Shown here: piece after piece, positions 14,438-50,821 of the stretch | Layout of the letters: every line of letters starts with the position of its first letter | Position numbering within the stretch: the first letter of the stretch is position 1 | Assembly (NCBI RefSeq): GCF_963675585.1 | Contig: NZ_OY776411.1 | Coordinates: 1,059,001 to 1,123,000 of the forward strand | Source of the DNA: an uncultured Draconibacterium sp. | GTDB taxonomy: Bacteria; Bacteroidota; Bacteroidia; Bacteroidales; Prolixibacteraceae | Direction: 5' to 3' | DNA: 64,000 nucleotides | The notes under the pieces: model-generated | Told to the model about the DNA's origin: nothing | What the model saw: the letters and a program-made list of their open reading frames with translations, nothing else | Database searches by the model: none | Program-made: the position numbers and the translations under genes

Positions 14438-15163
14438 CTAACCGATTTCGCTAATCCGTTTTAAAAGTGGCATGTTAATGATCTCAATCGTACCATCTTC
14501 GTTTTTTATAATGCTGTTGTCTTTAAAATCTTTGATAACTTTAACTACGCTCATGGTCGACATACCTGTGAGTTCAGCCAAATCGGACCGCGAAAGAGAG
14601 AGTTTAAATAGCGGCGTTTTATATATTTCTTCTGACAAATAAATGAGTGCATCAGCCAGGCGACCATTTAATTGTTTGTGCGTTAAACTTACAAATCGGG
14701 TAAAAGTAGAATTCGAGCAATTGTTCATGGTTGTTATTAGCTCAGCTGCAAATTTCCCATTGGTTTCAATCAACTCTTTTATTATCTCGTTTTCAATAAT
14801 ACAAACAGTCGTATTTTCAATAGCTGTTGCTGTGTAAGTATATACTTTATTGCCGTATATTGATGGTAATCCCAATAGATTTCCATCAGGCAAAAGATTA
14901 ATGACCAGATTTTTATCAGAATTTGGAATTTCTAAATACAATTTTACCAGGCCATGTTTTACAAAATGAACGTGATTGGCAAACGACCCTTGTTTAAAAA
15001 TAGTTTCGCCCGCTTTAAAATTAAGTTGAACTCTGTGTTTATCACTTAAGTTCAGCTCGGCTTCGTTGAGTTGTTTAAAACACGACGATTTGTTTTTGCA
15101 GAATAAACATGAATTAGAAGTGTCTGTAGTATTTATTATGTCCTTGATCATTCCGTTTTTCAA
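14438..15163 (-). CDS. Crp/Fnr-family regulator with complete FNR-type cysteine set
   Basis: A 241-residue regulator: N-terminal Cys cluster, cyclic-nucleotide-binding-like sensor domain (about 45-150) and a helix-turn-helix (about 185-230). Cysteines are at 19, 22, 28 and 121, that is CxxCx5C plus one distant Cys, one residue offset from E. coli FNR (20, 23, 29, 122), which binds an O2-labile [4Fe-4S] cluster. So O2 or NO sensing is likely. The recognition helix is unusual: MSTMSVVKVIKDF lacks the Glu and Ser/Arg residues that FNR uses to read TTGAT. It diverges from the mbx-type operon, with 162 bases between the two starts. A palindrome just before its start (15171-15190) may be its own operator. 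Start could also be Met5. Confidence 0.9.
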   Translation of the reverse strand: MKNGMIKDIINTTDTSNSCLFCKNKSSCFKQLNEAELNLSDKHRVQLNFKAGETIFKQGSFANHVHFVKHGLVKLYLEIPNSDKNLVINLLPDGNLLGLPSIYGNKVYTYTATAIENTTVCIIENEIIKELIETNGKFAAELITTMNNCSNSTFTRFVSLTHKQLNGRLADALIYLSEEIYKTPLFKLSLSRSDLAELTGMSTMSVVKVIKDFKDNSIIKNEDGTIEIINMPLLKRISEIG

Positions 15164-15325: not shown

Positions 15326-15820
15326 ATGAAGATAAAATCTTTTTTGATTTCAGTGGTAACGATTTTTGTTATTTGGGTTTTGCTTAATAACAAACTTTCG
15401 CTCGAAGTGCTGGCTTTCGGCGGTTTAATTGCGGTTGTAGTTGCCATAATGTTTCATCGCTCGTACGATATTTTTGAGGCATTAAAATTAAACCCAAAAG
15501 CAATTGTGTACTGGTTTGTGTACATTTTTGTTTTCCTGACGGAACTGGTAAAATCGAACCTCGATGTGGCTTTTAGAGTGATTTCACCAAAACTACCTAT
15601 TAATCCCGGTATTGTTGAAGTAAAAACCAAACTCAAATCAAAACTGGGTCGGATGATCCTTACCAATTCAATTACGCTTACCCCCGGAACCTTTACCGTG
15701 GAGTTGCTGGGCGACAGAATCTTTGTACACTGGATTGATGTAAAAAGCGAAGACATTGAAGAGGATACACGCTTGATTGTACACAAATTTGAAAAATACC
15801 TGGAGGTGATTTATGGTTAA
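15326..15820 (+). CDS. mbxA: MrpE/MnhE-like antiporter subunit E (MbxA equivalent)
   Basis: First gene of a 12-gene membrane-complex operon. The 164-residue protein has two or three N-terminal membrane helices and a cytoplasmic tail; the signature VYIFVFLTELVKSNLDVAFRV and RMILTNSITLTPGTFTVELLGD is typical of MnhE/MrpE. In MBH/MBX-type complexes this subunit belongs to the Mrp-derived ion-translocating membrane arm. The start at 15326 is preceded by AGAGAAAA, a weak purine-rich site. The end overlaps the next gene by 8 bases. Confidence 0.92.
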   Translation: MKIKSFLISVVTIFVIWVLLNNKLSLEVLAFGGLIAVVVAIMFHRSYDIFEALKLNPKAIVYWFVYIFVFLTELVKSNLDVAFRVISPKLPINPGIVEVKTKLKSKLGRMILTNSITLTPGTFTVELLGDRIFVHWIDVKSEDIEEDTRLIVHKFEKYLEVIYG

Positions 15821-16073
15821 TATCATTTTACAAATAGCCGGTGGGATTATGTTGCTAAGTATAATTCTTGCCTTGTACCGTTTTTTTAATGCAGGCTCGC
15901 TTGTAAGCAGAGTTATTGCATTCGATGTAATGAATATTGTTACGGTTTCACTGATTGCGTTGATCACGCTTTTTTCGGGCCGGACCATTTATATCGATGT
16001 GGCAATGATTTACGGATTGCTGAGTTTTCTTGGGGTTATAATCATTGCCAGGTATCTGGAAAAAAGTTTATAA
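15813..16073 (+). CDS. mbxB: MrpF/MnhF-like antiporter subunit F (MbxB equivalent)
   Basis: An 86-residue protein with three membrane helices, matching MnhF/MrpF in length and in the segments RFFNAGSLVSRVIAFDVMNI and IYIDVAMIYGLLSFLGVIII. It overlaps the preceding subunit by 8 bases and is followed 2 bases later by the G subunit, showing tight translational coupling. Role: part of the sodium/proton module of the membrane arm. Confidence 0.9.
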   Translation: MVNIILQIAGGIMLLSIILALYRFFNAGSLVSRVIAFDVMNIVTVSLIALITLFSGRTIYIDVAMIYGLLSFLGVIIIARYLEKSL

Positions 16074-16075
16074 GT

Positions 16076-16432
16076 ATGGAAGTTTTAAAAATAATAGGTG
16101 CTTTTATTACGCTAATTGGTTCGTTTTTCCTTTTGCTGGGAAGTATCGGATTGATTCGAATGCCCGATGTTTTTACACGCATCCAGGCCGGAACAAAAGC
16201 TTCAACGCTGGGAACAATTCTATCTTTATTGGGAATTGGTTTGATTTACCTCCCAATTTTCGGGAAAGTATTCCTGTTAATCGTATTCATTTTAATTACC
16301 AACCCGGTATCGTCGCACATGCTGGCACGCGCCGCACATTACATTGGTGTTAAAAAAGCCGATGTTACTGTGGTTGACAAATTGAGCGAATACTATGAAA
16401 ATAACAAAACGCAAAAACCGGAATTAAAATGA
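16076..16432 (+). CDS. mbxC: MrpG/MnhG-like antiporter subunit G (MbxC equivalent)
   Basis: A 118-residue protein with three membrane helices and the MnhG signature GSIGLIRMPDVFTRIQAGTK followed by LGTILSLLGIGLIYL and ITNPVSSHMLARAAHYIG. It ends in an ATGA overlap with the next gene. It forms part of the Mrp-like arm with the E and F subunits. Confidence 0.92.
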   Translation: MEVLKIIGAFITLIGSFFLLLGSIGLIRMPDVFTRIQAGTKASTLGTILSLLGIGLIYLPIFGKVFLLIVFILITNPVSSHMLARAAHYIGVKKADVTVVDKLSEYYENNKTQKPELK

Positions 16433-16668
16433 GCCTGATAATAACAATTGTATTAAGTCTGATAATGCTGATAATGGGTATCACAGCCATTCTTCATAAA
16501 AAACTCAGTGTGGCCATTATTGCAACCGGAATTGTGAGTTTGCTGGCTTCGGTTTTGTTTCTGTTAATGGCTGCTCCCGATGTGGCAATGACAGAAGCTG
16601 CCATTGGAAGCGGACTTTCTACCATCATCTTTTTTTATGTGTTGAATAAAATACGAAACGTAAAATGA
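16429..16668 (+). CDS. mbxD: MbxD/MbhD-like membrane subunit (DUF4040)
   Basis: A 79-residue membrane protein with three hydrophobic segments and the motif LMAAPDVAMTEAAIGSGLST, the hallmark of the MbhD/MrpA C-terminal DUF4040 segment. In the MBH/MBX complexes this helix bundle corresponds to a piece of MrpA. It overlaps its neighbours by ATGA on both sides. Confidence 0.9.
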   Translation: MSLIITIVLSLIMLIMGITAILHKKLSVAIIATGIVSLLASVLFLLMAAPDVAMTEAAIGSGLSTIIFFYVLNKIRNVK

Positions 16669-17366
16669 TACGCAACTTTTTTATACTACTATTATTGGCC
16701 GGGTTAACAGCAGTTTTTGTGAGCTTGTTTGTTGATTTCGGCAGCAGCGAAAGCTTGTCTCCGCTGGCAGAACACTACGCCAATTACGGCGCTGATGAGG
16801 TAGGAGCGCCCAACCTGGTAACTTCGGTGGTGGTAACTTACCGTGGTTTGGATACACTGGGCGAAGTAACCATCTTGTTTTTGGTGGCGTCCATCATCAG
16901 TTTTTTTCTGAAAAGAAATAAAGACCAGGAAGAGAAATTCGAAAAACGCGAATCGAGCGAGATTTTAAAATCAGCTTCACGTTTGTTGGTACCCATTGTA
17001 ATGGTGCTCGGAATTTATGTTTTTATAAACGGACACCTCACGCCGGGAGGAGGTTTTCAGGGAGGTGCAATTATTGCCACCGCTTTTATTCTGCTGTTAA
17101 TGACTTATCCCGATTACGAAATCAATCATAAAGTAATTTCAATTATTGAATCTATTTCAGGAATAAGCTTTGTGTTGATTGGTGTTTTAGGAATTGTACT
17201 GGCCGGTGGTTTTCTCGACAATAAAATTCTTGCATTGGGAACCTTCGGAAATATTTTAAGTGCCGGCGCCATCCCGATTATCTATTCGTTAATTGGATTA
17301 AAAGTGGGATCTGAGCTGTCGAATATCCTTTCAAATTTCCAGGCAGTACAAAAAGAAAAAATGTAA
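16665..17366 (+). CDS. mbxF: MnhB-like antiporter subunit (MbxE/F equivalent)
   Basis: A 233-residue membrane protein. The first 85 residues (ADEVGAPNLVTSVVVTYRGL, DTLGEVTILFLVASI) resemble the MbhE segment of MrpA, and the rest resembles MnhB/MbhF: SRLLVPIVMVLGIYVFINGH then LTPGGGFQGGAIIATAFILL. So two adjacent subunits of MBH appear joined, as I recall for MBX where the order runs D to F. It lies between the DUF4040 subunit and the C subunit. Confidence 0.88.
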   Translation: MIRNFFILLLLAGLTAVFVSLFVDFGSSESLSPLAEHYANYGADEVGAPNLVTSVVVTYRGLDTLGEVTILFLVASIISFFLKRNKDQEEKFEKRESSEILKSASRLLVPIVMVLGIYVFINGHLTPGGGFQGGAIIATAFILLLMTYPDYEINHKVISIIESISGISFVLIGVLGIVLAGGFLDNKILALGTFGNILSAGAIPIIYSLIGLKVGSELSNILSNFQAVQKEKM

Positions 17367-17383
17367 ATCATAAAAAGCAGTCA

Positions 17384-17740
17384 ATGGAAACTATCGCATT
17401 AATAACGGCTTTCGCATTAATTCTGATTGGAATTTATGGCATCCTTTCAAATAAAAATATCATCAAAATAATTGTGGGATTTTGGCTTTTTGAAACCGGT
17501 TTGCATGTATTAATTGTAACCATCGGGTACATTAAAGGTGGTACAGCTCCAATTCTTGACGATGCAGTGGGATTGACCAATGTGTCAGAAAAAATAGTAG
17601 ACCCGATTCCGCAGGCGCTGGTTTTAACGGCCATTGTAATCGGACTGGGAGTAACCGCGCTGATGCTGGCTTATGCCCTGAGAATGTACCAGGCTAAAAA
17701 GTCGCTCAATATTGGTGATTTCAAAGAATTGAAATGGTAA
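17384..17740 (+). CDS. mbxG: MnhC/NuoK-like subunit (MbxG equivalent)
   Basis: A 118-residue, three-helix protein of the NuoK/MrpC family. Key segments are GIYGILSNKNIIKIIVGFWL, GLHVLIVTIGYIKGG and the MnhC signature DPIPQALVLTAIVIGLG. In complex I relatives this subunit carries membrane glutamates used for proton transfer; E (WLFETGLH) is present in the second helix. It follows the B-like subunit by 17 bases. Confidence 0.92.
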   Translation: METIALITAFALILIGIYGILSNKNIIKIIVGFWLFETGLHVLIVTIGYIKGGTAPILDDAVGLTNVSEKIVDPIPQALVLTAIVIGLGVTALMLAYALRMYQAKKSLNIGDFKELKW

Positions 17741-17758
17741 TTAAATAAGTACTTAATA

Positions 17759-20700
17759 ATGAATTTAATTTCTCCTATAAATATTATCGCTGTTTCCCTT
17801 GGAGTTGCCTTTTTTATGGGCATGCTGGGAAAAAAGCTACAGGGATTTTCTTATTTCTTAATGCTGGCAGCTTTGCTTTTTAATACAATTATTTCGCTGG
17901 AGTGGTTTTATGCACTGGCAAATAATCTGGCTGAAGCACAGCAGGTTTTTACAGCAGGTTTTAAACCGCCGCTTTCCATTAATTTACTGATGGGATTAAA
18001 CGAGTCGGTAATTACCGGACTGGTAAATGTTGCCGGGTTGCTGGGCGCCGTTTATATGGCATCAACACTTAAAAAAGTGGGCACAGCAAGCCAGGTCGTT
18101 TTTCTGGTACTTATTATGAGTTTAAATGTAATTGTGCTTTCGCGCGACTTGTTTAATATTTTTGTTTTTCTTGAAGTGGCCAGTATTGCAGTGGCAGGTT
18201 TAATTATTTTGCAAAAAGGATTGAATGCTGTTTCAGCCGGATTTAAATACATGATTGCTACCGGTTTGATTTCCTCGTTTTTACTCCTCGGAATTATTTT
18301 TATCTATCGTTTTTCAGGAACACTAAATCTGGACATGGTAATTGAATCGAATCCGATGATTAAACAGGGAGCCATGGTTTCCACTTTTATTATTATGGTG
18401 GCAATTTTGCTTGAATTGAAACCGTTTCCGGCAAACGGCTGGGCACTCGATGTTTACCAGGCAGCTCACCCCGGTTTGTCGGCCATGCTTTCGTCGGCAG
18501 TGGCCACTGCAAATTTGTATGTGCTGTATAAATTTTCAGGATTGAATACCGAGAGCAGCATGTACTTTGTTGGCTTAATTGGTTTGATAACTTTTGTGGG
18601 TTCCAATCTTTTGGGAATGAACCAAACTAATGCACGACGTTTACTGGGGTATTCGTCGGTGGGGCAAATTGGTTTGCTGGTGGCCATTATTGGATTCATT
18701 CCACATTCAAACGAAAACTTTAAACTTATTTTTATAGGACTGCTGACCAGTCATTATTTTGCAAAAGCCGGTTTGTTTTGGATTGCCGGAATTGTAAAAA
18801 CCGAAAAATTAAAAGAGTGGTCGGTATTACGAAATAAACCTATTTTACTATTCCTGTTTCTGTCGTTTGTTCTGGCACTGACTGGATTCCCTCCGTTTCC
18901 ATCATTTTGGGGAAAATGGCAACTGATTATGGAGTTGTCGCAGCAAGGAAATATGGCTGCGATAATTGCCATTTTGGTAGGTTCGTTTTTCGAAGTGGTT
19001 TATTTATTACGCTGGGCTGGTTATTCCATAAAACTGGAGGCCGTTGCATTGCCTAAAGTAAAACTTACTCAACTGGTTCCTGTTATCCTATTCGGACTTG
19101 GAATTTATGCCACCGGATATTTTGTTTCGCAAAACACTGCTTTCGGGAATACTATAAATTACTTTCCACTGCTGGTTGTGGCGGCTCTTTTAGTGCTCGA
19201 TTTCCTTCCTGCATTTGTTAAAAATTCATTGTCAATTTTGGCAACCGGGTGGTTTGCTTATGAATTAATTCCGGGTCAAGAAACATTAAAACTGGTTTTT
19301 ACCGTGATATTTTTAATCGGAGGAATTTTAACGCTCATTCCCGGATTTCATGTAAAAGGGAAACGGGCAGGTTTTTATCCTTCGGCTATGTTAATGTTTG
19401 GAGGATTGGCACTTTTAATTGAAGCTGAAAACTTGTTGCAGTTTTTCTTTGCCTGGGAAATTATGACATTGGGTTCGTATTTTCTTATTATCCGCGGGAA
19501 AAAATCGATGCCACATGCATTTAGTTACATGTTATTTTCAGTAGGCGGTGCTTATTTAATTTTGATGGCATTCGGAATGGTTTCTGTTGGAAACAGCGGA
19601 TTAAGCCTGAGTTTACTATCACAAATTAATTTTTATCCGGTAGTTGCACTTGCCTTGCTCGCCATTGGTTTTATGACAAAAACAGCATCGCTCGGTTTAC
19701 ACATTTGGCTGCCGGGAGCACACGGTGAAGCAGAATCGGACGTGTCGCCAATGGTTTCTGCCATTCTGTTAAAAGCCGGAGTTTTTGGTCTGGTTATGCT
19801 TATGCTGGCTTCGGGTGGAGAACACAACTCGTATTCAGGATTGTTTTACACCTTAGGATGGATTGGTGCATTAACCGCTCTGGTGGGTAACCTTGGAGCA
19901 ATTTTCCAGGAAGATGCAAAACGTTTACTGGCTTACTCGAGTATCGGGCAGTTGGGATATATTTTATTCGCATTTTCTATTATGTCGCAAATGGGGTGGC
20001 TGACCGGTTTTACATACACAATAAACCACTTTATGTTTAAAGCTATTTTATTCCTTTCAGTGGGTGGAGTTGTAATGCGACTGGGGACACACAATATGTA
20101 CGAAATGGGAGGTCTAATCAAAAAAATGCCATTCTCATTTATTGCTGTTTTAATCGGAATTATTACGCTGGCTGGTATTCCTCCGCTTTCAGGTTTTGCC
20201 GGAAAATGGTTGTTCTACAACGCCGTTATTCTGAAAGGGTGGTATTTCCAGGGAGCCATTGTATTTTTTGCCGGAACCATCGCATTCCTATACTGTTTTA
20301 AACTCATTTATTCCATCTTTTTGGGTCAGTTAAAAGACAACCACCGGAATGTAAAAGAATTGCCTTTCTGGTATTTACTTCCAATATACATTCTGATTTT
20401 TGCCATTATGGTTTTTTCGGCCAAACCCGATTTGATTTTAAAACCACTTGGAAATGTTTTAGCGGTTAATTTCCCCAGCAACAATTTAACCTGGAACGGA
20501 ACCACTGCCATGAGTAAACTGGGGTACTGGGATGCCACAACAATTATGATTGTGATTGGAACCATGTTCGTGATTTTATTTAGCTGGCTGTGGCTGATGA
20601 GCCGCAAAGCGCAAAAAGTAAAACAGTTTAACATGGTTTATGCAGGCGAACGTCCCGAACGTCCTGAGTTAACACATGTTTCGCATAATATTTATGCCGG

Positions 20701-20887
20701 CTATAATAAAGCACTGGGATTTCTGGTGGCGCCCGGCATCACACATTTCTGGAAATATACATGCAACCTGTTTGAATCTACCGGCAATTTTATTCGCCGC
20801 CTTTACAGCGGAAACGGACAAAGCTACGCCTTTCATCTGGTAACTTATATCGTTATTGTTTTTGTCATTTATTTAAGCTCGATTTAA
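17759..20887 (+). CDS. mbxH: Fused double antiporter-like subunit (MbxH-MbxH' in one chain)
   Basis: A 1042-residue membrane protein carrying two NuoL/M/N-type proton-antiporter modules in tandem; each alone is about 480-500 residues. Module 1 (about 1-480) has NIFVFLEVASIAVAGLIIL, LLELKPFPANGW, and ARRLLGYSSVGQIGLLVAI. Module 2 (about 530-900) has FFAWEIMTLGSYFLII, MTKTASLGLHIWLPGAHGEA, SAILLKAGVFGLV and AKRLLAYSSIGQLGYILFAF. The conserved TM8 lysine is present in module 2 (K672) but appears to be Thr in module 1 (T250), so module 1 may not pump as usual. In archaeal mbx operons the two copies (H and H') are separate adjacent genes, so this is a fusion. The NuoH-like gene begins immediately after the stop codon. 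Confidence 0.92.
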   Translation: MNLISPINIIAVSLGVAFFMGMLGKKLQGFSYFLMLAALLFNTIISLEWFYALANNLAEAQQVFTAGFKPPLSINLLMGLNESVITGLVNVAGLLGAVYMASTLKKVGTASQVVFLVLIMSLNVIVLSRDLFNIFVFLEVASIAVAGLIILQKGLNAVSAGFKYMIATGLISSFLLLGIIFIYRFSGTLNLDMVIESNPMIKQGAMVSTFIIMVAILLELKPFPANGWALDVYQAAHPGLSAMLSSAVATANLYVLYKFSGLNTESSMYFVGLIGLITFVGSNLLGMNQTNARRLLGYSSVGQIGLLVAIIGFIPHSNENFKLIFIGLLTSHYFAKAGLFWIAGIVKTEKLKEWSVLRNKPILLFLFLSFVLALTGFPPFPSFWGKWQLIMELSQQGNMAAIIAILVGSFFEVVYLLRWAGYSIKLEAVALPKVKLTQLVPVILFGLGIYATGYFVSQNTAFGNTINYFPLLVVAALLVLDFLPAFVKNSLSILATGWFAYELIPGQETLKLVFTVIFLIGGILTLIPGFHVKGKRAGFYPSAMLMFGGLALLIEAENLLQFFFAWEIMTLGSYFLIIRGKKSMPHAFSYMLFSVGGAYLILMAFGMVSVGNSGLSLSLLSQINFYPVVALALLAIGFMTKTASLGLHIWLPGAHGEAESDVSPMVSAILLKAGVFGLVMLMLASGGEHNSYSGLFYTLGWIGALTALVGNLGAIFQEDAKRLLAYSSIGQLGYILFAFSIMSQMGWLTGFTYTINHFMFKAILFLSVGGVVMRLGTHNMYEMGGLIKKMPFSFIAVLIGIITLAGIPPLSGFAGKWLFYNAVILKGWYFQGAIVFFAGTIAFLYCFKLIYSIFLGQLKDNHRNVKELPFWYLLPIYILIFAIMVFSAKPDLILKPLGNVLAVNFPSNNLTWNGTTAMSKLGYWDATTIMIVIGTMFVILFSWLWLMSRKAQKVKQFNMVYAGERPERPELTHVSHNIYAGYNKALGFLVAPGITHFWKYTCNLFESTGNFIRRLYSGNGQSYAFHLVTYIVIVFVIYLSSI

Positions 20888-21796
20888 ATGGAATTTACTG
20901 TAAGCAAAATACTTTGGACCCTGTTGGGATTATTTATTGTCCTGAACTGGGGATTGATTATGGGAGGTACAATGCGCAAAATTGGTGCACGTGTTGCAAA
21001 ACGTCATGGCATTCCGCTATACCAGCCCTACATCGATTTGATTAAAAATTACGCCATTCGTTCGCAAATCACGCACGGAATCATGTTCTACCTCGGGCCG
21101 GTTTTCCGCTTGTCGGGAGGTGTGGGAATCTTTCTTTTTCTCCCCTTAATTTTTGGTAACGAACACTGGTCAAATTTTTCATTTTCGGGCGATTTAGTTT
21201 TAATTCTCTATTTTCAGTTTTTTGGAATGTTGGGAATGGCGCTTGGAGCCGGAGAAGGCGGACATCCGTATTCGGCAATTGGAATCAGCCGCGGTTTGTC
21301 GCAGTTTACAACCATCGAAGTACCGATGACTCTGGCGGTGATTTCTATCGCTGTTCAGTACAACACACTTTCAATTTCTGAAATTGTGGCTGCACAACAG
21401 GGAGGATTTGCCCACTGGACAATGATAACCAATCCCTTTGCAACGGCTGCAGCAGTTTTATCAATGTTGGGAGCCTTTGGTCATTCGCCATTTAATTTGG
21501 TAAAAGCACCCAACGAAATTCCTATTGGACCACCAACCGAATATCATGCAACGTATTTGGGCGTATTGCGCACTAATGCGGCCATTTTACATGTGGTGGA
21601 AGCCGCATTGTTTATGAACTTGTTTTTTGGAGGTGCAACCAACTGGTTTGAGTTCATCCTGAAAACTTTCCTTATTTATTTCTGGAGCGTTTTTGTGGGA
21701 ATGGTTTTCCCTCGATTCATGATAGAACAATCGGTGCAGTGGTTTTTAAAAATCCCGCTGGTACTCGGAATCATTGCAATCATTGTCATTTTATAA
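20888..21796 (+). CDS. mbxM: NuoH-like membrane subunit (MbxM equivalent)
   Basis: A 302-residue polytopic protein of the complex I NuoH / group 4 hydrogenase anchor family. Signature stretches are KRHGIPLYQPYIDLIKNY, GMALGAGEGGHPYSAIGISR and APNEIPIGPPTEYHATYLG. It links the peripheral Fe-S arm to the antiporter arm and shapes the coupling route for ions. The ATG follows directly on the TAA of the antiporter gene; the next gene starts 9 bases after its stop. Confidence 0.93.
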   Translation: MEFTVSKILWTLLGLFIVLNWGLIMGGTMRKIGARVAKRHGIPLYQPYIDLIKNYAIRSQITHGIMFYLGPVFRLSGGVGIFLFLPLIFGNEHWSNFSFSGDLVLILYFQFFGMLGMALGAGEGGHPYSAIGISRGLSQFTTIEVPMTLAVISIAVQYNTLSISEIVAAQQGGFAHWTMITNPFATAAAVLSMLGAFGHSPFNLVKAPNEIPIGPPTEYHATYLGVLRTNAAILHVVEAALFMNLFFGGATNWFEFILKTFLIYFWSVFVGMVFPRFMIEQSVQWFLKIPLVLGIIAIIVIL

Positions 21797-21805
21797 GATT
21801 TTACC

Positions 21806-22477
21806 ATGAAAGAGACAGACAATCAAGATAAATTCATTCACGAAGAAAATAAAAAGCGAGAAGTAGTTGCGCCCGATGGAAGCATTATTGAAATTAATCC
21901 GATGGAGGATTATTTCTGCGGTGCCCGTCCGCAAGTACAAGAGCCGCATAAAGTTAAAGTTGTTGAAAAATTTTTGAACTGGGCACGTTCCGAGTCGATT
22001 TGGGTATTAGGATTTGGAACCGGCTGTGGAAGTATTGAAATTCCACCGCTGGTAACTCCGCGCTTCGATATGTTCCGCTTTGGTGTGCAAATGCGCCCGA
22101 CTCCGCGTCAGTCGAATGCCATAATTATTTCGGGTTATCTCTCGGTAAAAACATTAAAAAGAGCAATTCGCAGTTACGAACAAATGCAAAGTCCTAAATA
22201 TTTAATTGCACTGGGAAGTTGTACCATCAACGGTGGAATGTACTGGGACAGCTACAATACCATTAACCGGGTTGACCAATATTTACCGGTTGATGTTTAC
22301 ATCGCCGGTTGTATGCCACGTCCTGAAGCGTTGCTAGCCGGTTTTGAAAAATTGAAGGAGCTGATAAAAGCGGGTAAAGCAGAAAAAGCAAACGAATACA
22401 TCGAGAACCTTGACTGGTACAAAGCCAATCAGAAAAAAATTATTAAAGACTGGAACATGCCGGATTATAATTGGTAA
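21806..22477 (+). CDS. mbxJ: NuoB-like Fe-S subunit with three ligand cysteines (MbxJ equivalent)
   Basis: A 223-residue small-subunit protein that should hold the proximal [4Fe-4S] cluster next to the catalytic subunit. Candidate ligands are C74 (GTGCGSIE), C139 (ALGSCTING) and C169 (AGCMPRPE). The tandem CC of NuoB and the CxxC of MbhJ are both absent, leaving three ligands. I recall that the archaeal MBS sulfane reductase also has a three-Cys proximal cluster, which would fit. C38 lies outside the family core. The N-terminal 30 residues are charged and family-atypical. Confidence 0.9.
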   Translation: MKETDNQDKFIHEENKKREVVAPDGSIIEINPMEDYFCGARPQVQEPHKVKVVEKFLNWARSESIWVLGFGTGCGSIEIPPLVTPRFDMFRFGVQMRPTPRQSNAIIISGYLSVKTLKRAIRSYEQMQSPKYLIALGSCTINGGMYWDSYNTINRVDQYLPVDVYIAGCMPRPEALLAGFEKLKELIKAGKAEKANEYIENLDWYKANQKKIIKDWNMPDYNW

Positions 22478-22578
22478 AAAACAAAAAATACCACTTTTCT
22501 TTTCCTTTTTAGAAGGGAAATATCAGCAGGGTAAGGAATGTGGGGGAGCTGATGACAAAGGGGTAAAAAATAATACAA

Positions 22579-23109
22579 ATGAAGAAATTTATAGAAAACT
22601 TAGGATACAAATTCAACCTTTCGGAGGTTGAATACCAGCGGAAGAACCTCACTTTTGTTACGGTTGATAAAGAAAGTGCTGTGCAAATGCTGGCCTATCT
22701 TCGAGATTATGAAGGATTCAGTCATTTTGTATTAATGACTGCTGTGGATTGGATTGAAGACGGTCTGTTTCAATTGACCTACATTCTGAATAATCCGACA
22801 AAAAAAATTGATCTTGCCATTCGCACTAAAATTCTACGCGAAAAAGCAAAGATGACCACTGCGCATCATTTGTGGAACCAGGTGGCTACTTATCAACGCG
22901 AATTAAAAGAGATGTTCGGCATTGATTTTCCGGAAAGTCCGCGCGTTAACGAATCGTTTATTCTCGAAGGTTGGGATAATATTCCACCCATGCGCCGCGA
23001 TTTCGACACCAAAAAATATTCTGAAGAAACATTCTTCCCTCGACCTGGGCGGGGTACAAACGACCCAAGTGAATACATGAAACAAAAATTATATCCCAAT
23101 GAACAATAA
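22579..23109 (+). CDS. mbxK: NuoC-like subunit (MbxK equivalent)
   Basis: A 176-residue soluble subunit of the 30-kDa NuoC family. The conserved region is REL-type: YQRELKEMFGIDFPESPRV, followed by ILEGWDNIPPMRRDF near the C-terminus. It packs against the NuoD-like subunit in the peripheral arm. A 101-base gap precedes it, the longest inside the operon core, and it overlaps the next gene by 11 bases. Confidence 0.92.
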   Translation: MKKFIENLGYKFNLSEVEYQRKNLTFVTVDKESAVQMLAYLRDYEGFSHFVLMTAVDWIEDGLFQLTYILNNPTKKIDLAIRTKILREKAKMTTAHHLWNQVATYQRELKEMFGIDFPESPRVNESFILEGWDNIPPMRRDFDTKKYSEETFFPRPGRGTNDPSEYMKQKLYPNEQ

Positions 23110-24292
23110 ACATTGGCTAAATATAGGATACGACCGCAGCAACTACCCGCAAAAGGGGAGCGACGGTAATTTGGTGATTGATGAATCATCGCACAAACTG
23201 GTAAAAGTGTGGCAGGGACCAAACCACCCCGGTGTTACTGGAAACATGTCGATTGAACTGACAGTCAGTGGTGATGAAATTGTAGAAGCAAAAACACATG
23301 TGGGATACCTGCACCGCGGTTTCGAGAAACTTTTTGAACGCCGGAAATACATCCAGGTTTTTCCAACTTGTATTCGTTTGTGTGTGGCTGAGCCCGATTA
23401 CAATGAATACAATCTGGCAGCCAGTGTGGAAGAATTGGGTGGAATTGAAATACCGGAAGCTGCTTTGTGGTTGCGTACTTTGGTACTCGAAATGGCGCGT
23501 TTGCAGTCTTTGCTACGTGTTGTACCGGGGCAGGGGGGAACCACCGGACTGGGAATTGGCGTGCAGTGGGGCGTTTATCTTCGCGACCTGATTCTCGACC
23601 GTTTTGAAGAATTGACGGGCGGACGTGTGTATCACATGTACATTATTCCGGGCGGAGTGCGCGGATTGTTACCCGATGGTTTCAAAAAACGAATGCTGGA
23701 GAACCTGAAAGAAATTGATGATTTTGTGGTGAACATCGACAATGTGATGTACAACAATGCGGTTTTCAAAAAGCGTACAATTGGTGTGGGTTACATCGAC
23801 CCAAGCTGGATTGACAGCTACGGAGTGGTTGGGCCAAATGCGCGCGCTGCAGGTTTTAAACGCGATGTACGCAAAGATTATCCGTACCTGAAATATAGCG
23901 ATCTGGACTTCGACCCAAAAACAGCAACGGAATCGGATATTTATACCCGCTCACGTATTCGCTGGCACGATCTGCAAACAACAGTAAGTTTAATCCGTCA
24001 GATTCTGGATAAAATGCCTGACAAAGGGGAAATCAGAGCTGAAACACCAAATGTATTACACTGGAAACTACCAAAGGGTGAAACCTATGTTCGGGCTGAA
24101 TCATCACGCGGAGAATATGGTTTTTATGTGGTTTCCGACGGAACTGAATATCCACGTAGAATTAACCTGCGCGGACCAAGTTACACACACGCCGTTTCGT
24201 TGCTGGAACGCATGCTGATTGGAGCCAACATTGCCGATGTGGCAAATATTATGGTGTCGCTGCAAACCTGCCCGCCAGAAATTGAACGCTAG
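23099..24292 (+). CDS. mbxL: NuoD-like catalytic-type subunit with CxxE motifs (MbxL equivalent)
   Basis: A 397-residue large subunit related to NuoD and to [NiFe] hydrogenase large subunits. Where group 4 hydrogenases have RxCxxC near the N-terminus and DPCxxC at the C-terminus, this protein shows RLCVAE (C95, E98) and TCPPE (C391, E394): the second Cys of each pair is Glu. Without the four Cys, [NiFe] binding is not expected, so H2 chemistry is unlikely. An extra C91 lies nearby. Other conserved parts include HVGYLHRGFEKLFE and GGIEIPEAALWLRTLV. It is joined to MbxK by an overlap, followed by 160 AT-rich bases before the last gene. Confidence 0.93.
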   Translation: MNNKHWLNIGYDRSNYPQKGSDGNLVIDESSHKLVKVWQGPNHPGVTGNMSIELTVSGDEIVEAKTHVGYLHRGFEKLFERRKYIQVFPTCIRLCVAEPDYNEYNLAASVEELGGIEIPEAALWLRTLVLEMARLQSLLRVVPGQGGTTGLGIGVQWGVYLRDLILDRFEELTGGRVYHMYIIPGGVRGLLPDGFKKRMLENLKEIDDFVVNIDNVMYNNAVFKKRTIGVGYIDPSWIDSYGVVGPNARAAGFKRDVRKDYPYLKYSDLDFDPKTATESDIYTRSRIRWHDLQTTVSLIRQILDKMPDKGEIRAETPNVLHWKLPKGETYVRAESSRGEYGFYVVSDGTEYPRRINLRGPSYTHAVSLLERMLIGANIADVANIMVSLQTCPPEIER

Positions 24293-24452
24293 CAAATTTA
24301 TAATTGATTATTGATTAATTATTATTGAAAAATTTGAAGAATATGTCAAAAAGCTCAGTAAAATATACAAACACTAAAATGCGAAGCATTGAGAAAAAGC
24401 TTTACAAGAATTCAGTAATAAATCATAATTAATAAATCATAATTTTTAAAAA

Positions 24453-26255
24453 ATGAGTTCTATTAAAGATATATTAATGCCATTTACCGCCTGGAAAAAT
24501 GTTTTCAAGGAACCGGTAACCATTAAAGACCCGATAAACGACCGTCCCGGCGCAGCGCGTTACCGCGGATTTCATAAAAACGATGTAAGTACCTGTATTG
24601 GTTGTGGTACCTGTGAATCTATTTGTGAAAACGAAGCCATCGACATGGTTGCCATTGCCAATTTCGAACCGAAAGACGGCGACAGTGGTTTGCGCCCAAA
24701 AGTGGATTATGGACGATGCTGCTGGTGTGCACTTTGTGTTGATGTATGTACAACCGGTTCGCTGAGTATGTCGAACGAATATACCTGGGTGGATACCGAC
24801 CCCGAAAATTTCCGTTTTATTCCGGGTGTGGATGAAAAGAACTGGGACAAAAACGAACTGGGCTGGAAAAAACCGGAAGGCGACGATTACCAGTTTTACG
24901 GACTCGAACGCGTTAAAATGGGAGAACTTCATCCGGAAGAAAGAGATGATTCTTTTATTGAAATGATACAGGGTTTCTCGAAAGAGCAAGCCGAAAAAGA
25001 AGCCGACCGTTGTGTGGAATGTGGTATTTGTACTGCCACCTGCCCGGCGCACATGGGAATTCCGGAATATATAAAAGCTATTAGAAACGACGATTTGGAA
25101 GAAGGTCTGCGTATTTTATACGATACCAATCCGCTACCTGAAATTTGCGGACGGATCTGTACACACAAATGCGAAAGTGTTTGTTCAATCGGTCATAGGG
25201 GAGAGCCACTTTCTATACGCTGGCTGAAACGTTACATTGCCGACCAAAATCCGTCGGAAAAGTACAAGACCATTTTAGAAACCGATTTTATTGAGAAAAA
25301 CGGGAAAAAGATTGCCATTATTGGTTCTGGTCCTGCCGGATTATCAGCGGCTCATTACCTTGCCAAACTTGGTTACGAAGTAGAAATCTTTGAAAAACTG
25401 GCGCAAGCCGGTGGTATGATGCGTTTTGGTATTCCTGAATACCGTTTGCCATACGACCAGATTGATAAAGATGTGAATTACATTTTATCGTTGGGCGTAA
25501 AAATTCATTACAATGTGAATGTGGGAGCGGATATTACCCTTGAAAAATTGGGAAAAGATTTTGATGCTGTATTTGCCGGAACAGGTCTGCACCTGGGAAG
25601 AAGCACACGTATTGAAGGTTCTGACCACGAAAATGTGTATCAGTCGATTGAATTGTTGCGCAAAATCACACAGGGAGAAGAAATCCATGTGGCAGAAAAA
25701 ATAGTGGTAATTGGCGGTGGAAATGTGGCTATGGATATTACCCGTTCGCTGGCACGTTTGCAAAATCAAAAATACGGCAACGTGCAGCTTATTGCCACCA
25801 GTCTGGAAACCGAAGAAAAAATGCCTGCCGACCGTGAAGAAGTTGTTGAAGCACGCGAAGAAAAAGCAACGGTGAATCCGGGTTGGGCGCCACAAAAAGT
25901 GGAAATTGTTGACGGAAAAGTGAAAGGCCTGCATGTGGTTCAGTGCTTGTCGTTATTCGACGAAACGGGAGCCTTTAATCCGCAGTGCAACATGGAAAAT
26001 AAAAATTTCTTCGAAGGTGATATGATTGTAGAATCCATCGGTCAGGGAATGGATTTGAGTTATATATCGGAGGACATTAAAGAGAACCTGGAAATGGGAC
26101 CGCGAGGAAGGGTTAAAGTAAATAACGATTTCCAAACCAGCGTGCCGTGGTTATTTATGGGTGGTGACACCATTCAGGGACCCGACGTAATTCACGGAAT
26201 TGCAAACGGGCATCGTGCCGCTCTGGGTATCGATCGGTTTTTAATTGGAGAATAA
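24453..26255 (+). CDS. NuoI-like ferredoxin fused to GltD-type FAD/NAD(P) oxidoreductase (MbxN-like fusion)
   Basis: A 600-residue fusion. N-terminal part (about 1-110) is a two-cluster NuoI/MbxN-type ferredoxin: C48-C51-C54-C58 and C89-C92-C95-C99. The remainder resembles the small subunit of glutamate synthase / NfnB / PreT: Fe-S motifs CVECGICTATCP and CGRICTHKCESVC (about 185-250), FAD site IAIIGSGPAGLSAAHYLAK, NAD(P) site IVVIGGGNVAMDITRSLA, and the FAD-binding LFMGGDTIQGPDVIHGIANG. In archaeal mbx operons the last gene encodes only the NuoI-like part, so this fusion could give the complex a direct NAD(P)H or ferredoxin:NAD(P) entry point; that role is inference. It could also act as an electron input for other partners. 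Confidence 0.88.
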   Translation: MSSIKDILMPFTAWKNVFKEPVTIKDPINDRPGAARYRGFHKNDVSTCIGCGTCESICENEAIDMVAIANFEPKDGDSGLRPKVDYGRCCWCALCVDVCTTGSLSMSNEYTWVDTDPENFRFIPGVDEKNWDKNELGWKKPEGDDYQFYGLERVKMGELHPEERDDSFIEMIQGFSKEQAEKEADRCVECGICTATCPAHMGIPEYIKAIRNDDLEEGLRILYDTNPLPEICGRICTHKCESVCSIGHRGEPLSIRWLKRYIADQNPSEKYKTILETDFIEKNGKKIAIIGSGPAGLSAAHYLAKLGYEVEIFEKLAQAGGMMRFGIPEYRLPYDQIDKDVNYILSLGVKIHYNVNVGADITLEKLGKDFDAVFAGTGLHLGRSTRIEGSDHENVYQSIELLRKITQGEEIHVAEKIVVIGGGNVAMDITRSLARLQNQKYGNVQLIATSLETEEKMPADREEVVEAREEKATVNPGWAPQKVEIVDGKVKGLHVVQCLSLFDETGAFNPQCNMENKNFFEGDMIVESIGQGMDLSYISEDIKENLEMGPRGRVKVNNDFQTSVPWLFMGGDTIQGPDVIHGIANGHRAALGIDRFLIGE

Positions 26256-26380: not shown

Positions 26381-27364
26381 ATGAATATTTCAACAAAATA
26401 CATGGGATTGGAGCTGAAAAGCCCGATTATCGTTGGTAGCTCATCGTTAACCGAAAAGGTAGAAAATTCGGTAGCTTACGAGAAAGCCGGTGCCGGAGCA
26501 ATTGTATTAAAATCGCTTTTCGAGGAACAAATACTGCACGATGTCGATTCGCAGAGGCTAAACAATATGTATGGCACGTACAATGACCAGGAACATTATG
26601 CGATGTATTTTAGCAAAAAACACAATCTGTCGAATTACATCAGCTTAATCGAAAAAAGTAAGGCTGCATTAAGTATTCCGGTTATAGCAAGCATTAATTG
26701 TGTGTCGGCGGAGGAATGGATTTCGTATGCCAAAATGATCGAGGATGCCGGTGCCGATGCGTTGGAAGTAAACCTGTTTTTGTTACCTGCCGATATAAAT
26801 GAAACAGGAGAAGAAAAGGAAAAAGAGTATTTCGATATTATTGAAAAAGTAAGCGAAGTAATTACCATTCCATTTTCGATTAAACTCAGTTACTATTTTT
26901 CAGGATTGGCAAATTTTATTAAACGCATTTCCACTACCAAAGCCTCGTCGGTGGTGTTATTCAACAAATTTTACAGTCCCGATGTGGATATTCAAAAGGA
27001 AAAAATTTCATCGGGCGACGTGATGAGCACTAAAGAATTGAATACAATGACTTTGCGCTGGATTGGAATTTTGTACGATAAAGTGGATATAGAATTAACA
27101 GCTTCGGGAGGAATTTTTAATGGCGAGCAGATGATTAAAAATCTGTTGGTTGGTGCGCAGACAACTGAAGTTGTTTCTGCCATTTATAAAAACGGTGCAA
27201 AAGTTATCGAGGAAATGACTGCGACTTTAAACGACTGGATGACCCGTCACAATTACAATTCAATTGAAGAATTCCGAGGAAAAGCCAGCCAGAAAAACAT
27301 CAAAAAACCAATTCTTTTCGAGCGTACCCAGTTTATGCGTTATTTTTCAGACGCAGGATATTAA
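26381..27364 (+). CDS. Dihydroorotate dehydrogenase-like flavoprotein
   Basis: A 327-residue TIM-barrel protein of the dihydroorotate dehydrogenase-like family: SPIIVGSSSLTEKVE at the N-terminus, KAGAGAIVLKSLFEEQI, VIASINC, DALEVNLFLLPAD, TASGGIFNGEQMIKNLLVGA. FMN binding is expected from the fold. These Bacteroidota proteins are not the pyrimidine-pathway PyrD; true function is unknown. Its place 125 bases after the GltD-type fusion recalls the PreT/PreA pairing of GltD-like and DHOD-like halves in dihydropyrimidine dehydrogenase, so an electron-transfer link is possible. The Fe-S tail of PreA is missing. Confidence 0.85.
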   Translation: MNISTKYMGLELKSPIIVGSSSLTEKVENSVAYEKAGAGAIVLKSLFEEQILHDVDSQRLNNMYGTYNDQEHYAMYFSKKHNLSNYISLIEKSKAALSIPVIASINCVSAEEWISYAKMIEDAGADALEVNLFLLPADINETGEEKEKEYFDIIEKVSEVITIPFSIKLSYYFSGLANFIKRISTTKASSVVLFNKFYSPDVDIQKEKISSGDVMSTKELNTMTLRWIGILYDKVDIELTASGGIFNGEQMIKNLLVGAQTTEVVSAIYKNGAKVIEEMTATLNDWMTRHNYNSIEEFRGKASQKNIKKPILFERTQFMRYFSDAGY

Positions 27365-27767: not shown

Positions 27768-28460
27768 ATGGAATCAAATAATATAAAATGCCGAACCTGT
27801 GTGATTAAGTCGAGCGCTGCTTCGGTTTTAAACTACGATGAACTTGGTATATTAGAGAAAGCTTGTTTCCAAACAAATTTTCGCAAAGGCGAATTAATTT
27901 TTAAAGAAGGGGCTCCTGCCCAACATATTACGTATATACGCGACGGTTTTGTTAAACTGAGTAAAATAATTCGGGCAGGAAAAGAAAACATAGTAAGTAT
28001 TTCAAAACAAGGTGCTTATCTTGGAATTCAGAATTTAAATAAAACCAATACGATCAATTATTTTTCGGCTTATGCCATTTCCGACACGCTAGTTTGTTTC
28101 CTCGACATCGACTATTTCGACCAATTAATTAAACATAATGGGGAGTTTGCATCAGAAGTAATTTCCTATATTATTAATGATGAAATGGGTAATTTTGATC
28201 GATTGCTTAACAATGTTCAGCAACAATTACCGGGAAGGTTGGCAAGTATTCTCTTTTACTTTAGCAAGCAAGTATTTTGTCAAAATCCTTTTAACCTAAA
28301 CATTACCAAGAATGAACTTGCCTCATTAATTGGAACATCACGTGAAAGTGTTACCCGCTTATTAAAAGATTTCCAGGATAATGGTATTATAAAAATGGAA
28401 AAAAGCAGCATTACTATTTTGGATGAACCCAAATTAATGGAAATCAAAAGGAAAGGCTAG
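27768..28460 (+). CDS. Crp/Fnr-family regulator with incomplete FNR-type cysteine set
   Basis: A 230-residue paralogue of the regulator at 14438-15163. Aligned without gaps over the N-terminal region, it keeps three of the four FNR-type cysteines (C8, C11, C110) but has A17 where the partner has C28; C33 is an additional Cys. The sensor domain (about 35-140) is followed by a helix-turn-helix with a canonical reading helix (GTSRESVTRLLKDF, with Glu and Arg in the FNR positions). So it should bind an FNR-like site but may hold a weaker or different cluster, or none. It and its paralogue bracket the mbx-type operon. Confidence 0.9.
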   Translation: MESNNIKCRTCVIKSSAASVLNYDELGILEKACFQTNFRKGELIFKEGAPAQHITYIRDGFVKLSKIIRAGKENIVSISKQGAYLGIQNLNKTNTINYFSAYAISDTLVCFLDIDYFDQLIKHNGEFASEVISYIINDEMGNFDRLLNNVQQQLPGRLASILFYFSKQVFCQNPFNLNITKNELASLIGTSRESVTRLLKDFQDNGIIKMEKSSITILDEPKLMEIKRKG

Positions 28461-46250: not shown

Positions 46251-46283
46251 GATGTTGGCTTATTTCGTTTGTAATTCTGTTTG

Positions 46284-47075
46284 TTATTTTTTGTTGGTGT
46301 ACTCCTGGGTCAAATCAAAATCTTCCGTTTTAAAGGCATCGGTTTCAGGTAGTTCAATCGCAAAACCGGAACAGAAGTCAATTTCAATTTTCAGATTAGA
46401 AGCTTTAAATTCCATAACATGGCCGGCCTGTGTTTTATCATCCGAAATAAAATGAAGATGGAATCCAGCCACATTTACTTTTCCAATGTATTCGGGGTAC
46501 CAAAACCCAACAAGGGTGCCTTTTATGTTTTTAAGATCAAAAGTTGGTCGGTCGATTAATGCATCACTTAAGGTTTTTGTATAAGGTTTTTCCTGTTTAT
46601 CGGCGCTACCACATTTTAACGATTCAAAATCGGCTTTAACTTTAAAAGCGTAAGGCATATTTTTCGAAGGAAGCTGAGAGCTTATAAAAGTTTTTAAATG
46701 CTTGTAGTCTTCCGCGTTTGCTAGTTCAATTGTTTTATCGGCTTCAAAAAAAGTAACCACTGTAAAAGGCACTAACTCCGAGTCTGCAGGGGTTCGAACA
46801 CTTCCGTTTGCAAGCCACTGGTATACAACTCCGTCACAAACAATCATTTCTCCATTTAAACCATTAAAAGTACCTAAACCAATATCACCCTTTTCTTTTA
46901 CATCCGCAACACACAATGTACCGTCGTAAATTTTGTTTGCAAGGGCTGTAAAAACGGAATACTGATAAATATTATCAGATATTTCCGGGGCTGAAATTGG
47001 GTTGTTATTTTTTTTTATACTGCACGAAAAAATAGTGCAGCAGAGAATAAGCAGGAGCAGTGTTTTGTTTTTCAT
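46284..47075 (-). CDS. Alpha-acetolactate decarboxylase, predicted lipoprotein
   Basis: A 263-residue protein of the acetolactate decarboxylase family, which converts alpha-acetolactate to acetoin. Zinc ligands H206, H208 and H219 are present (GFHLHFISDDKTQAGH). Further family signatures are YQYSVFTALANKIYDG, GLGTFNGLNGEMI and TLVGFWYPEYIGKVNVAGFH. The unusual point is a lipoprotein signal (TIFSC, C18): most known members are cytoplasmic. It lies 10 bases after the sulfatase gene upstream, inside the sulfatase/GH2 run. Confidence 0.88.
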   Translation of the reverse strand: MKNKTLLLLILCCTIFSCSIKKNNNPISAPEISDNIYQYSVFTALANKIYDGTLCVADVKEKGDIGLGTFNGLNGEMIVCDGVVYQWLANGSVRTPADSELVPFTVVTFFEADKTIELANAEDYKHLKTFISSQLPSKNMPYAFKVKADFESLKCGSADKQEKPYTKTLSDALIDRPTFDLKNIKGTLVGFWYPEYIGKVNVAGFHLHFISDDKTQAGHVMEFKASNLKIEIDFCSGFAIELPETDAFKTEDFDLTQEYTNKK

Positions 47076-47085
47076 AAAAAAGAGT

Positions 47086-48675: not shown

Positions 48676-48716
48676 TTTATAAGTTAGTGGTGCAAAGCAC
48701 CTGAGTTCGTGACTTT

Positions 48717-49049
48717 TTACAGAAAATCTTCGCGAACCGGGCTAAAGACGTCAACGAGTGTACCTGCTGATTTACAGACTACTCCATGAACTACGTCGGG
48801 AAGTGCAATAAAACAATCGCCTTTTTTAAGGAGTTGAAATTTATCTCCCATTTGTACCTCAAATTCGCCACTTTCAACATAAGTTGATTGCGTATGCGGA
48901 TGACTGTGTGCAGATCCAATGGCACCTTCTTCAAACTTTACAAGCACCATCATTATATCGTTATTGTATCCGGTTATTTGGCGGGTAACTCCCGGGGCTA
49001 CTTCTTCCCATTCGTATTTTTTGTTATCAAAAAAAACCTTGTCTGTCAT
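48717..49049 (-). CDS. Cupin-domain protein, KdgF-like
   Basis: A 110-residue single-cupin protein with the metal site HSHPHTQSTYVESGEFEV (His residues around 62-66) and GDCFIALPDVVHGVVC. The sequence resembles KdgF-like cupins, which convert unsaturated uronates to 4-deoxy-hexulosonates, so an uronic-acid link (for example in ulvan or pectin) is possible. No carbohydrate lyase is in view. It starts a minus-strand group with the sulfatase. Confidence 0.75.
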   Translation of the reverse strand: MTDKVFFDNKKYEWEEVAPGVTRQITGYNNDIMMVLVKFEEGAIGSAHSHPHTQSTYVESGEFEVQMGDKFQLLKKGDCFIALPDVVHGVVCKSAGTLVDVFSPVREDFL

Positions 49050-49268
49050 ACTATTTTCTTCTAATTTGTTATTCAGCCTTAAAAATAAGCGAAATTTCTG
49101 TAGGCCGCGGCCTTTATATGTATTTTTCTAAACGTTCTGATCTGCGACTTTTACCACTTGCTTTCTGACTTATGTAATTCGAATTGCCCCTTTCAAAGGT
49201 GTATACTCGTGATAAAGACTGTTCCTTCGAATACTGACAGGTGGTTCTGTCTTTTTATAAAAAGTAGT

Positions 49269-50705: not shown

Positions 50706-50739
50706 AAAAGTTTGGTTTTAATAGAACTTAATAAAGTAG

Positions 50740-50747
50740 CAAAAGTA
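50740..50747 (-). promoter_or_regulatory. Possible -7 promoter element for the arylsulfatase
   Basis: Minus-strand TACTTTTG fits TAnnTTTG, 35 bases before the ATG of the sulfatase, just downstream of the GH2 terminator. No -33 partner is found. Confidence 0.35.
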
Positions 50748-50756
50748 AAGATTAAA

Positions 50757-50805: not shown

Positions 50806-50821
50806 GTATTTCGAAATGTAT

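Follow-up and report, generated by a model that had tools for sequence, protein, structure and literature searches.

A 12-gene operon in DNA of an uncultured Draconibacterium sp. probably encodes an ion-translocating NAD(H):sulfane-sulfur oxidoreductase, i.e. a membrane complex of the MBX/MBS type equipped with an NAD(H) module of its own. The operon occupies positions 15326–26255 of a 64,000-nucleotide stretch of contig NZ_OY776411.1 (referred to here as the window) and ends in a gene that fuses a NuoI-like subunit to a GltD-type flavoprotein. By sequence, the complex is of the MBX/MBS type and its activity is predicted; we infer which cofactors are bound, the specificity for NADH, the substrate, the direction, the ion and the stoichiometry.

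All 12 frames are intact on the plus strand, their translations containing no internal stops, and Pfam and NCBIfam assignments yielded the subunit order A, B, C, D, E, G, H-H′, M, J, K, L, N (Table 1). A first-pass annotation, made from the sequence alone, had proposed this gene set, order and motifs, all of which were borne out save for two details. The antiporter 'pair' it described is represented by both halves, not as two separate genes but within a single 1042-residue open reading frame (ORF), and its 'B-like' gene does carry an MnhB domain, joined with MbhE in one protein. The membrane set of MBX/MBS complexes is fully present, with two antiporter-like subunits (fused), Mrp E-, F-, G-, B- and C-like subunits, and MbhD/E. 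In uniting MbhE and MnhB, MbxE resembles the six-helix MbsE of Pyrococcus furiosus.

Active site and antiporter subunits

A J-pattern scan of 84,980 species genomes returned at least 565 stretches encoding a relative of the NuoB-like subunit J, the nearest 80 of which were examined; having been picked by J similarity, these are not an unbiased sample. We assign the complex to the MBX/MBS type because of its nearest structure, the three-cysteine site of J, the loss of quinone residues and the residual cysteines of L. Searched against PDB sequences, L, J, M and the two antiporter halves all had P. furiosus MBS (6u8y) as their nearest entry. MbxL scored 297 bits against MbsL and 188 bits against Nqo4, and the N-terminal part of the fused last subunit had 6u8y_N as its best NuoI-type chain (83 bits). 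Together with the MBS active-site hallmarks described below, this supports the MBX/MBS-type complex called in the first-pass annotation.

According to the portion of PMC7684303 consulted, P. furiosus MBS takes its electrons from ferredoxin, holds its proximal [4Fe-4S] cluster by three cysteines only (MbsJ C28, C93 and C123), has no quinone ligands and retains two of the four Ni-Fe cysteines (MbsL C85 and C385), of which C385 proved dispensable in P. furiosus mutants. The same text places the point at which redox chemistry drives pumping, for MBS and MBH as for complex I, in the proximal-cluster chamber formed by J, L and M. In our alignments, the three proximal cysteines of J were kept in 81/81 sequences (the window and its 80 nearest relatives) and in all 12 further J sequences aligned (L010, L108–L118). 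The equivalent of MbsJ C25, a fourth, non-ligating cysteine, was never Cys among the 81 (Gly in 79, Ala in 2; Gly71 in the window). Nine J sequences from operons of what we call type II, in which H and H′ are separate genes, retained C25 as in P. furiosus. In L, the position of the Nqo4 quinone residue His38 was Thr in 74/74 sequences (window Thr47), and that of Tyr87 (window residue 90) was Thr, Ile or Leu in all 74. Window Cys95 and Cys391 align with MbsL C85 and C385, the equivalents of which were Cys in 68 and 45 of the 74 L sequences, respectively (window included).

Two other members of the superfamily were considered and rejected. Complex I is excluded by the absence of quinone residues and of NuoE, F and G from the 12 operon genes (NuoF was not searched genome-wide), and a [NiFe] group 4 hydrogenase (MBH) by the lack in L of the two CxxC pairs of Ni-Fe ligands and by MbsL being its best PDB match. 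A genome search identified no second 49-kDa subunit in the host. With complex I, the window complex would share NADH input, an iron–sulfur (Fe-S) wire, the chamber and the antiporters, while differing in the NADH module, in lacking NuoEFG in the operon and quinone ligands, and in its Mrp-like Na+ module.

The N-terminal half of the antiporter protein best matched chain H of 6u8y (MbsH), the C-terminal half chain X (MbsH′). H-H′ formed a single frame in 63 of the 65 testable loci among the 80 nearest relatives and two pieces in the other 2 (15 were not testable). The H half of the window protein keeps MbsH E138, E219 and K393 and has lost K250 and H330. Across the fused type, the three retained positions were conserved (Asp at Glu219 in 2/67; one gap at Lys393), and the Lys250 position, near residue 250, was Thr, Ser, Ala, Pro or Gly in 67/67 antiporters, as opposed to Lys in the nine unfused sequences compared (eight of type II plus L010). 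H330 was changed in the fused type and in these nine alike. The H′ half keeps E128, K217, K248 and K399, with H336 changed; in window MbxM, MbsM E203 and E211 are kept and E104, E193 and D196 changed, D196 still being Asp in 32 of 77 sequences.

The fused NuoI-GltD subunit and its distribution

The last subunit, MbxN-GltD, consists of a NuoI-like domain with two [4Fe-4S] motifs (approximately residues 4–125) and a GltD/NfnL-type domain with two further [4Fe-4S] motifs and FAD and NAD sites (approximately 153–600). Residues 4–598 match positions 8–607 of the 611 in NCBIfam NF010590/PRK13984, annotated as 'putative oxidoreductase', at 890.7 bits, just short of the curated cut-off (946 bits). The NuoI-GltD fusion thus appears to belong to an already curated, yet uncharacterised family. 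The sixteen cysteines of its four motifs (48/51/54/58, 89/92/95/99, 187/190/193/197 and 232/236/240/244) were invariant in 64/64 full-length sequences, as were the FAD and NAD loop residues checked. The fusion with two Fe-S motifs of its own on the GltD side, as first annotated, is hence confirmed by domains, cysteines and conservation.

An AlphaFold2 model built from 56 sequences (pLDDT 89, pTM 0.83; lower over the first 40 residues) had NfnL (5jca_L; TM 0.70 by query) as its best Foldseek match. NfnL, NfnABC and StnABC chains headed the structural matches and were also among the best sequence matches, and both searches showed the fold to be shared by the non-bifurcating enzymes GltD and dihydropyrimidine dehydrogenase (DPD). 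Common to NfnL, NfnABC, StnABC, GltD and the N-terminal half of DPD is a GltD-type 2x[4Fe-4S]-FAD-NAD(P) fold. None of these enzymes is known to have a membrane arm of the complex I type; the window protein differs from them in being fused to a NuoI-like subunit and in its NAD-type loop. Where the second strand of the NAD(P) domain ends, 58 of 64 sequences carried Glu (window Glu452), five YRRR and one another sequence, while 4ylf and 9bov have YRR at this position. The YRR motif plays a role in NADPH binding. The loop reads LE in the nine type II relatives as well, and YRRR in L117 and L118. Because Glu replaces the YRR motif in 58/64, NAD(H) is favoured over NADP(H) as the likely cofactor.

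By their record titles, all of the 80 nearest relatives were bacterial, spanning Bacteroidales, 'Chlorobiota', Neomarinimicrobiota, Delongbacteria, Alpha- and Gammaproteobacteria and others, with Thiothrix caldifontis, Magnetovibrio blakemorei, Lamprobacter, Halochromatium and two Prolixibacter among the named organisms. MBX-type operons, of which at least 565 J-relative stretches give a measure, therefore occur well outside the thermophiles from which they are known. Sixty-four of the 80 loci contained enough DNA beyond L for the fusion to be assessed (16 were cut by contig ends); N and GltD shared one frame in 62 and formed two adjoining frames in 2, and in no case was the GltD part absent. 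As both the H-H′ and the N-GltD fusion were kept in nearly all testable relatives, neither is a chance event.

We also searched genome samples of three groups: the host phylum, identified as Bacteroidota by the record titles of its nearest relatives, and the classes of the centre isolates Lamprobacter and Magnetovibrio, these classes being, we assume, Gammaproteobacteria and Alphaproteobacteria, respectively. The fusion was present in 2/296 genomes of the host phylum (the host and G009), in 13/274 gammaproteobacterial genomes and in 1/289 alphaproteobacterial genomes, the last being the centre genome itself. All 13 gammaproteobacterial fusions lay directly downstream of an mbx L gene, and both fusions in the host phylum also lay behind one. 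The same fusion beside NuoD-like genes, which the first-pass annotation had suggested looking for, is thus found both here and in all 64 assessable nearest relatives. A stand-alone soluble enzyme, which would have spoken against a role in the complex, was not seen in the sampled Gammaproteobacteria (13/13) or host phylum (2/2) and is rejected for the groups sampled, Thermotogota not being covered. The NAD-module MBX system is not peculiar to Bacteroidota.

Eleven of the 13 gammaproteobacterial loci had longer flanks, and in nine of them H and H′ were separate (type II); in L117, the locus of which is cut by its contig, and L118 they were fused. The second host-phylum genome, G009 (locus L010), holds a complete operon with separate H and H′. 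In a FastTree phylogeny of 87 L sequences rooted on Nqo4, the 75 sequences of the window type (support 0.997) and, separately, the nine type II sequences (0.961) each formed a clade, with P. furiosus MbsL clustering with L010 and the window type (0.98). The unfused archaeal form is therefore flanked on either side by fusion-bearing lineages, and the fusion may have had one or more origins.

An association with sulfur metabolism emerged from the gammaproteobacterial sample. dsrA (E up to 1e-60) was detected in 92/274 genomes, 87 of them above cut-off, and was present in 13/13 fusion carriers (counting G606, the dsrA of which is a contig-end fragment below cut-off) compared to 79/261 non-carriers (hypergeometric p 3.8e-7, or 1.1e-6 without the centre genome; phylogeny not corrected for). 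Likewise, among the 80 nearest relatives, 21 of which have Proteobacteria titles, dsrA was found in 14/14 such genomes searched. Four of these are Alphaproteobacteria (L060, L066, L069 and L074), a class in which 4/288 sampled genomes besides the centre carried the gene.

Proposed electron route and competing explanations

Since the three-cysteine cluster and the NAD module are both conserved, we propose a wire that has NADH at one end and sulfane sulfur at the other. NADH would pass a hydride to the FAD in the GltD-like half of the last subunit, from where electrons would travel over four [4Fe-4S] clusters, two in each of its domains (GltD-type and NuoI-like), and reach the NuoB-like subunit at its proximal cluster. 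There, the one iron left free by three-cysteine ligation would bind a sulfane sulfur substrate, e.g. polysulfide, persulfide or a related disulfide or trisulfide, and split its S–S bond, within what in complex I is the quinone chamber. This redox step would power both the antiporter pair H-H′ and the Na+/H+ module resembling Mrp. The redox potentials of NADH and sulfane sulfur are close, so the complex could run in either direction, as NADH-driven sulfur reduction under anoxia or as sulfur-driven NAD+ reduction powered by an ion gradient.

The first-pass annotation had envisaged a single complex linking either ferredoxin or sulfane sulfur to NAD(P)H, as an alternative to Rnf. The sulfane route gains support from the above. 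The ferredoxin route corresponds to an ion-pumping ferredoxin:NAD(P)+ oxidoreductase, i.e. an Rnf analogue in which electrons enter from ferredoxin at the NuoI-like clusters and leave to NAD(P)+ at the GltD flavin. Motifs for all cofactors that it requires are present, the GltD-type domain of NfnL, our best structural match, performs such chemistry, and an older proposal, repeated in the part of PMC6349859 consulted, considered P. furiosus Mbx a ferredoxin:NADP+ oxidoreductase. Nevertheless, we regard this as unlikely. Electrons on this route would by-pass the J/L/M chamber at which pumping is coupled (PMC7684303, as excerpted above), which weakens it as a pumping reaction, yet the three-cysteine site of that chamber is kept in every J examined. 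The host genome already encodes RnfC (569 bits), as do 40 of the 47 carriers searched, which were taken from the 80 loci; the role of Rnf substitute is therefore rejected. NqrF, too, is encoded by the host genome (612 bits).

Quite unlikely, too, is a confurcating or bifurcating enzyme, the NfnL-like flavin of which would join or split electrons of ferredoxin and NAD(P)H, with sulfane sulfur as a third partner. The high ranking of NfnL, NfnABC and StnABC chains is what this explanation would expect, but the fold is equally that of non-bifurcating GltD and DPD, and no NfnS-like gene was found among the 12 operon genes (flanks and genome were not searched).

An improbable third option is that the sulfane site is a relic and that the complex serves another low-potential acceptor, or acts as an ion-driven reverse pump reducing NAD+ for biosynthesis or N2 fixation. 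Consistent with the latter, nifH occurred in 4/13 gammaproteobacterial carriers vs. 22/261 non-carriers (p 0.025; 0.086 without the centre genome), a weak lead, and in the portion of PMC11636981 consulted, a putative Mrp-Mbx complex of Endoriftia is co-expressed with the reductive tricarboxylic acid (rTCA) pathway. However, nifH was not found in 9 of the 13 carriers, and the association with dsrA is far stronger. Least credible of all, and very improbable, is a plain ferredoxin-only MBS homologue with an accessory or structural GltD half, for although P. furiosus MBS runs from ferredoxin (PMC7684303, in part) and its 208-residue N subunit matches the NuoI-like part only, the invariance of the checked FAD/NAD loop residues and of the eight extra Fe-S cysteines in 64/64 sequences argues otherwise.

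Several observations weigh against an NAD(H):sulfane-sulfur oxidoreductase. Energetically, the potential drop from NADH to sulfane sulfur is small for a complex with this number of pump-like subunits, and proton-path residues are changed at MbsH K250 and H330, MbsH′ H336 and MbsM E104, E193 and D196; on one reading, an inference only, these changes might lower the ion-to-electron ratio and so fit the smaller drop. At the active site, the MbsL C385 equivalent is Tyr in 29/74 sequences, and J of the dsrA-carrying relative L118 (gene from L118:11347) has two adjacent cysteines (TGCC) at the proximal site, like complex I. The predicted cofactor specificity rests on one loop. As to the link with sulfur, the TIGR02064 dsrA model cannot tell oxidative from reductive Dsr, and the association test was uncorrected for phylogeny. 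No dsrA was detected in the host genome or in the other 33 relatives searched (including L082, titled only 'bacterium'), and no sulfur-like gene appeared among recurrent neighbours in Bacteroidota loci, only some of which were annotated; in Bacteroidota, the sulfur link therefore comes from the active site alone. Finally, the Thermotoga maritima genome has an NF010590 protein above cut-off, and this fusion may lie outside the mbx operon of that species, in which TM1217 is, presumably, a glutamate-synthase-like gene. In T. petrophila, according to a table in the part of PMC2246101 consulted, TM1217 is next to mal1, a position occupied in T. maritima by TM1205.

Neighbouring genes and biological meaning

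Table 1. Features of the MBX-type operon and its immediate neighbours (window coordinates; aa, amino acids)
Feature	Coordinates	Strand	Basis
FNR-like regulator, divergent from operon	14438..15163	-	C-x2-C-x5-C motif
MbxA (MrpE-like), 164 aa	15326..15820	+	PF01899 (MNHE)
MbxB (MrpF-like), 86 aa	15813..16073	+	PF04066 (MrpF_PhaF)
MbxC (MrpG-like), 118 aa	16076..16432	+	PF03334 (PhaG_MnhG)
MbxD (MbhD-like), 79 aa	16429..16668	+	PF13244 (MbhD)
MbxE (MbhE + MnhB domains, single protein), 233 aa	16665..17366	+	PF20501, PF04039
MbxG (MrpC/NuoK-like), 118 aa	17384..17740	+	PF00420 (Oxidored_q2)
MbxH-H′ fused double antiporter subunit, 1042 aa	17759..20887	+	Proton_antipo_M x2; 6u8y matches
MbxM (NuoH-like membrane anchor), 302 aa	20888..21796	+	PF00146 (NADHdh); best PDB 6u8y_M
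MbxJ (NuoB-like), 223 aa	21806..22477	+	Oxidored_q6; proximal-cluster Cys 74, 139, 169
MbxK (NuoC-like), 176 aa	22579..23109	+	PF00329 (Complex1_30kDa)
MbxL (NuoD-like), 397 aa	23099..24292	+	Complex1_49kDa; Cys95, Cys391
MbxN-GltD fusion, 600 aa	24453..26255	+	Fer4 dicluster + Fer4_20 + Pyr_redox_2
DHOD-like protein, optional partner	26381..27364	+	NF005741/PRK07565

The divergently encoded regulator belongs to a homologue cluster with members beside the operon in 26 of the 81 loci compared, namely the 80 relatives and L010, many of which are truncated at contig ends. Its C-x2-C-x5-C motif recurs in 21 of 27 homologues at related loci. This motif is of the FNR type and tied to anoxic control, and a regulator of this kind fits anoxic control of the operon. 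A search for an FNR-type site (TTG[AT][CT]-N4-[AG][AT]CAA) gave no match upstream of the window operon and matches in 3/27 rows of related loci (two rows without a gap to read). A second Crp/FNR-family regulator, without the cysteine motif, is encoded at 27768–28460 (plus strand).

Directly 3′ of the fusion lies a gene for a dihydroorotate dehydrogenase (DHOD)-like FMN protein, homologues of which flank the operon in 29/81 loci. The pairing of GltD-like and DHOD-like proteins resembles DPD and PreT/PreA, and by analogy the DHOD-like protein might dock on the GltD half. Other genes near mbx operons encode small ferritin-like proteins (three clusters with 5, 4 and 3 loci, e.g. L073:14172–14660, L052:8112–8558 and L043:13512–13964; two representatives gave weak ferritin-type family matches), a CBS-domain protein (14 loci) and an NqrA homologue of Na+-NQR (L020, L030, L033, L039, L040, L068 and L070; upstream on the opposite strand in 6/7). 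Elsewhere in the window, OvoA (11607–13706, minus strand) would serve the biosynthesis of ovothiol, a thiohistidine, with its 5-histidylcysteine sulfoxide synthase and methyltransferase NCBIfam domains both above cut-off. Two sulfatase-like ORFs with a CSPSR motif (47086–50705, minus strand) lie amid glycoside-hydrolase-like ORFs (43446–53254), which, judged from translations only, looks like a sulfated-polysaccharide locus.

Among known systems, P. furiosus MBS/MBX (6u8y) shares with the window complex the subunit set, three-cysteine proximal cluster, lost quinone residues, two Ni-Fe cysteines and Mrp-like module. The window complex differs in its GltD/FAD/NAD half on N, its single H-H′ polypeptide, the replacement of MbsJ C25 by Gly, the loss of MbsH K250 and H330, and its bacterial host. 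The mbx operon of T. maritima is likewise bacterial; the source texts, each seen in part, give it twelve genes (PMC2246101) or 13 subunits (PMC9431562), and the latter reports a 4.4-fold upregulation of mbxA with S0. Endoriftia, a gammaproteobacterial sulfur oxidiser, has its 'putative Mrp-Mbx complex', likened here by description only; the excerpt of PMC11636981 makes no mention of an NAD module, describes network neighbours shared with the rTCA cycle, like those of sulfur globule protein genes, and lists MBX among complexes of unknown function or direction. An open-access literature search returned no description of a GltD fusion or NAD(H) module in MBX, nor of a tie to dsr. While MBX in bacteria was known already (Thermotoga, Endoriftia), the predicted NAD(H)-module variant and its dsr tie appear to be new.

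If our reading is correct, the NuoI-GltD fusion would represent a second evolutionary solution for wiring NADH into a complex-I-type pump and give a function to a family known only as a 'putative oxidoreductase' (NF010590). It would also be a candidate for the enzyme with which sulfur-globule bacteria use their stored sulfur under anoxia, a step without an assigned enzyme in the open-access literature searched; Beggiatoa sp. 35Flor, for instance, respires stored sulfur according to the part of PMC4914600 consulted. More broadly, and tentatively, we suggest that an NADH-oxidising module entered the complex I superfamily on more than one occasion, here through fusion of a GltD/NfnL-type flavoprotein to the NuoI-like subunit of a complex that kept its sulfane-reducing cluster, to give an energy-conserving NADH:sulfane-sulfur oxidoreductase. 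In sulfur-globule bacteria with reverse Dsr, such a complex would link NADH with stored sulfur once oxygen or nitrate has run out; in anaerobic Bacteroidota it would provide a sulfur-based electron sink. NAD-module MBX may thus be an overlooked link between NADH and sulfur.

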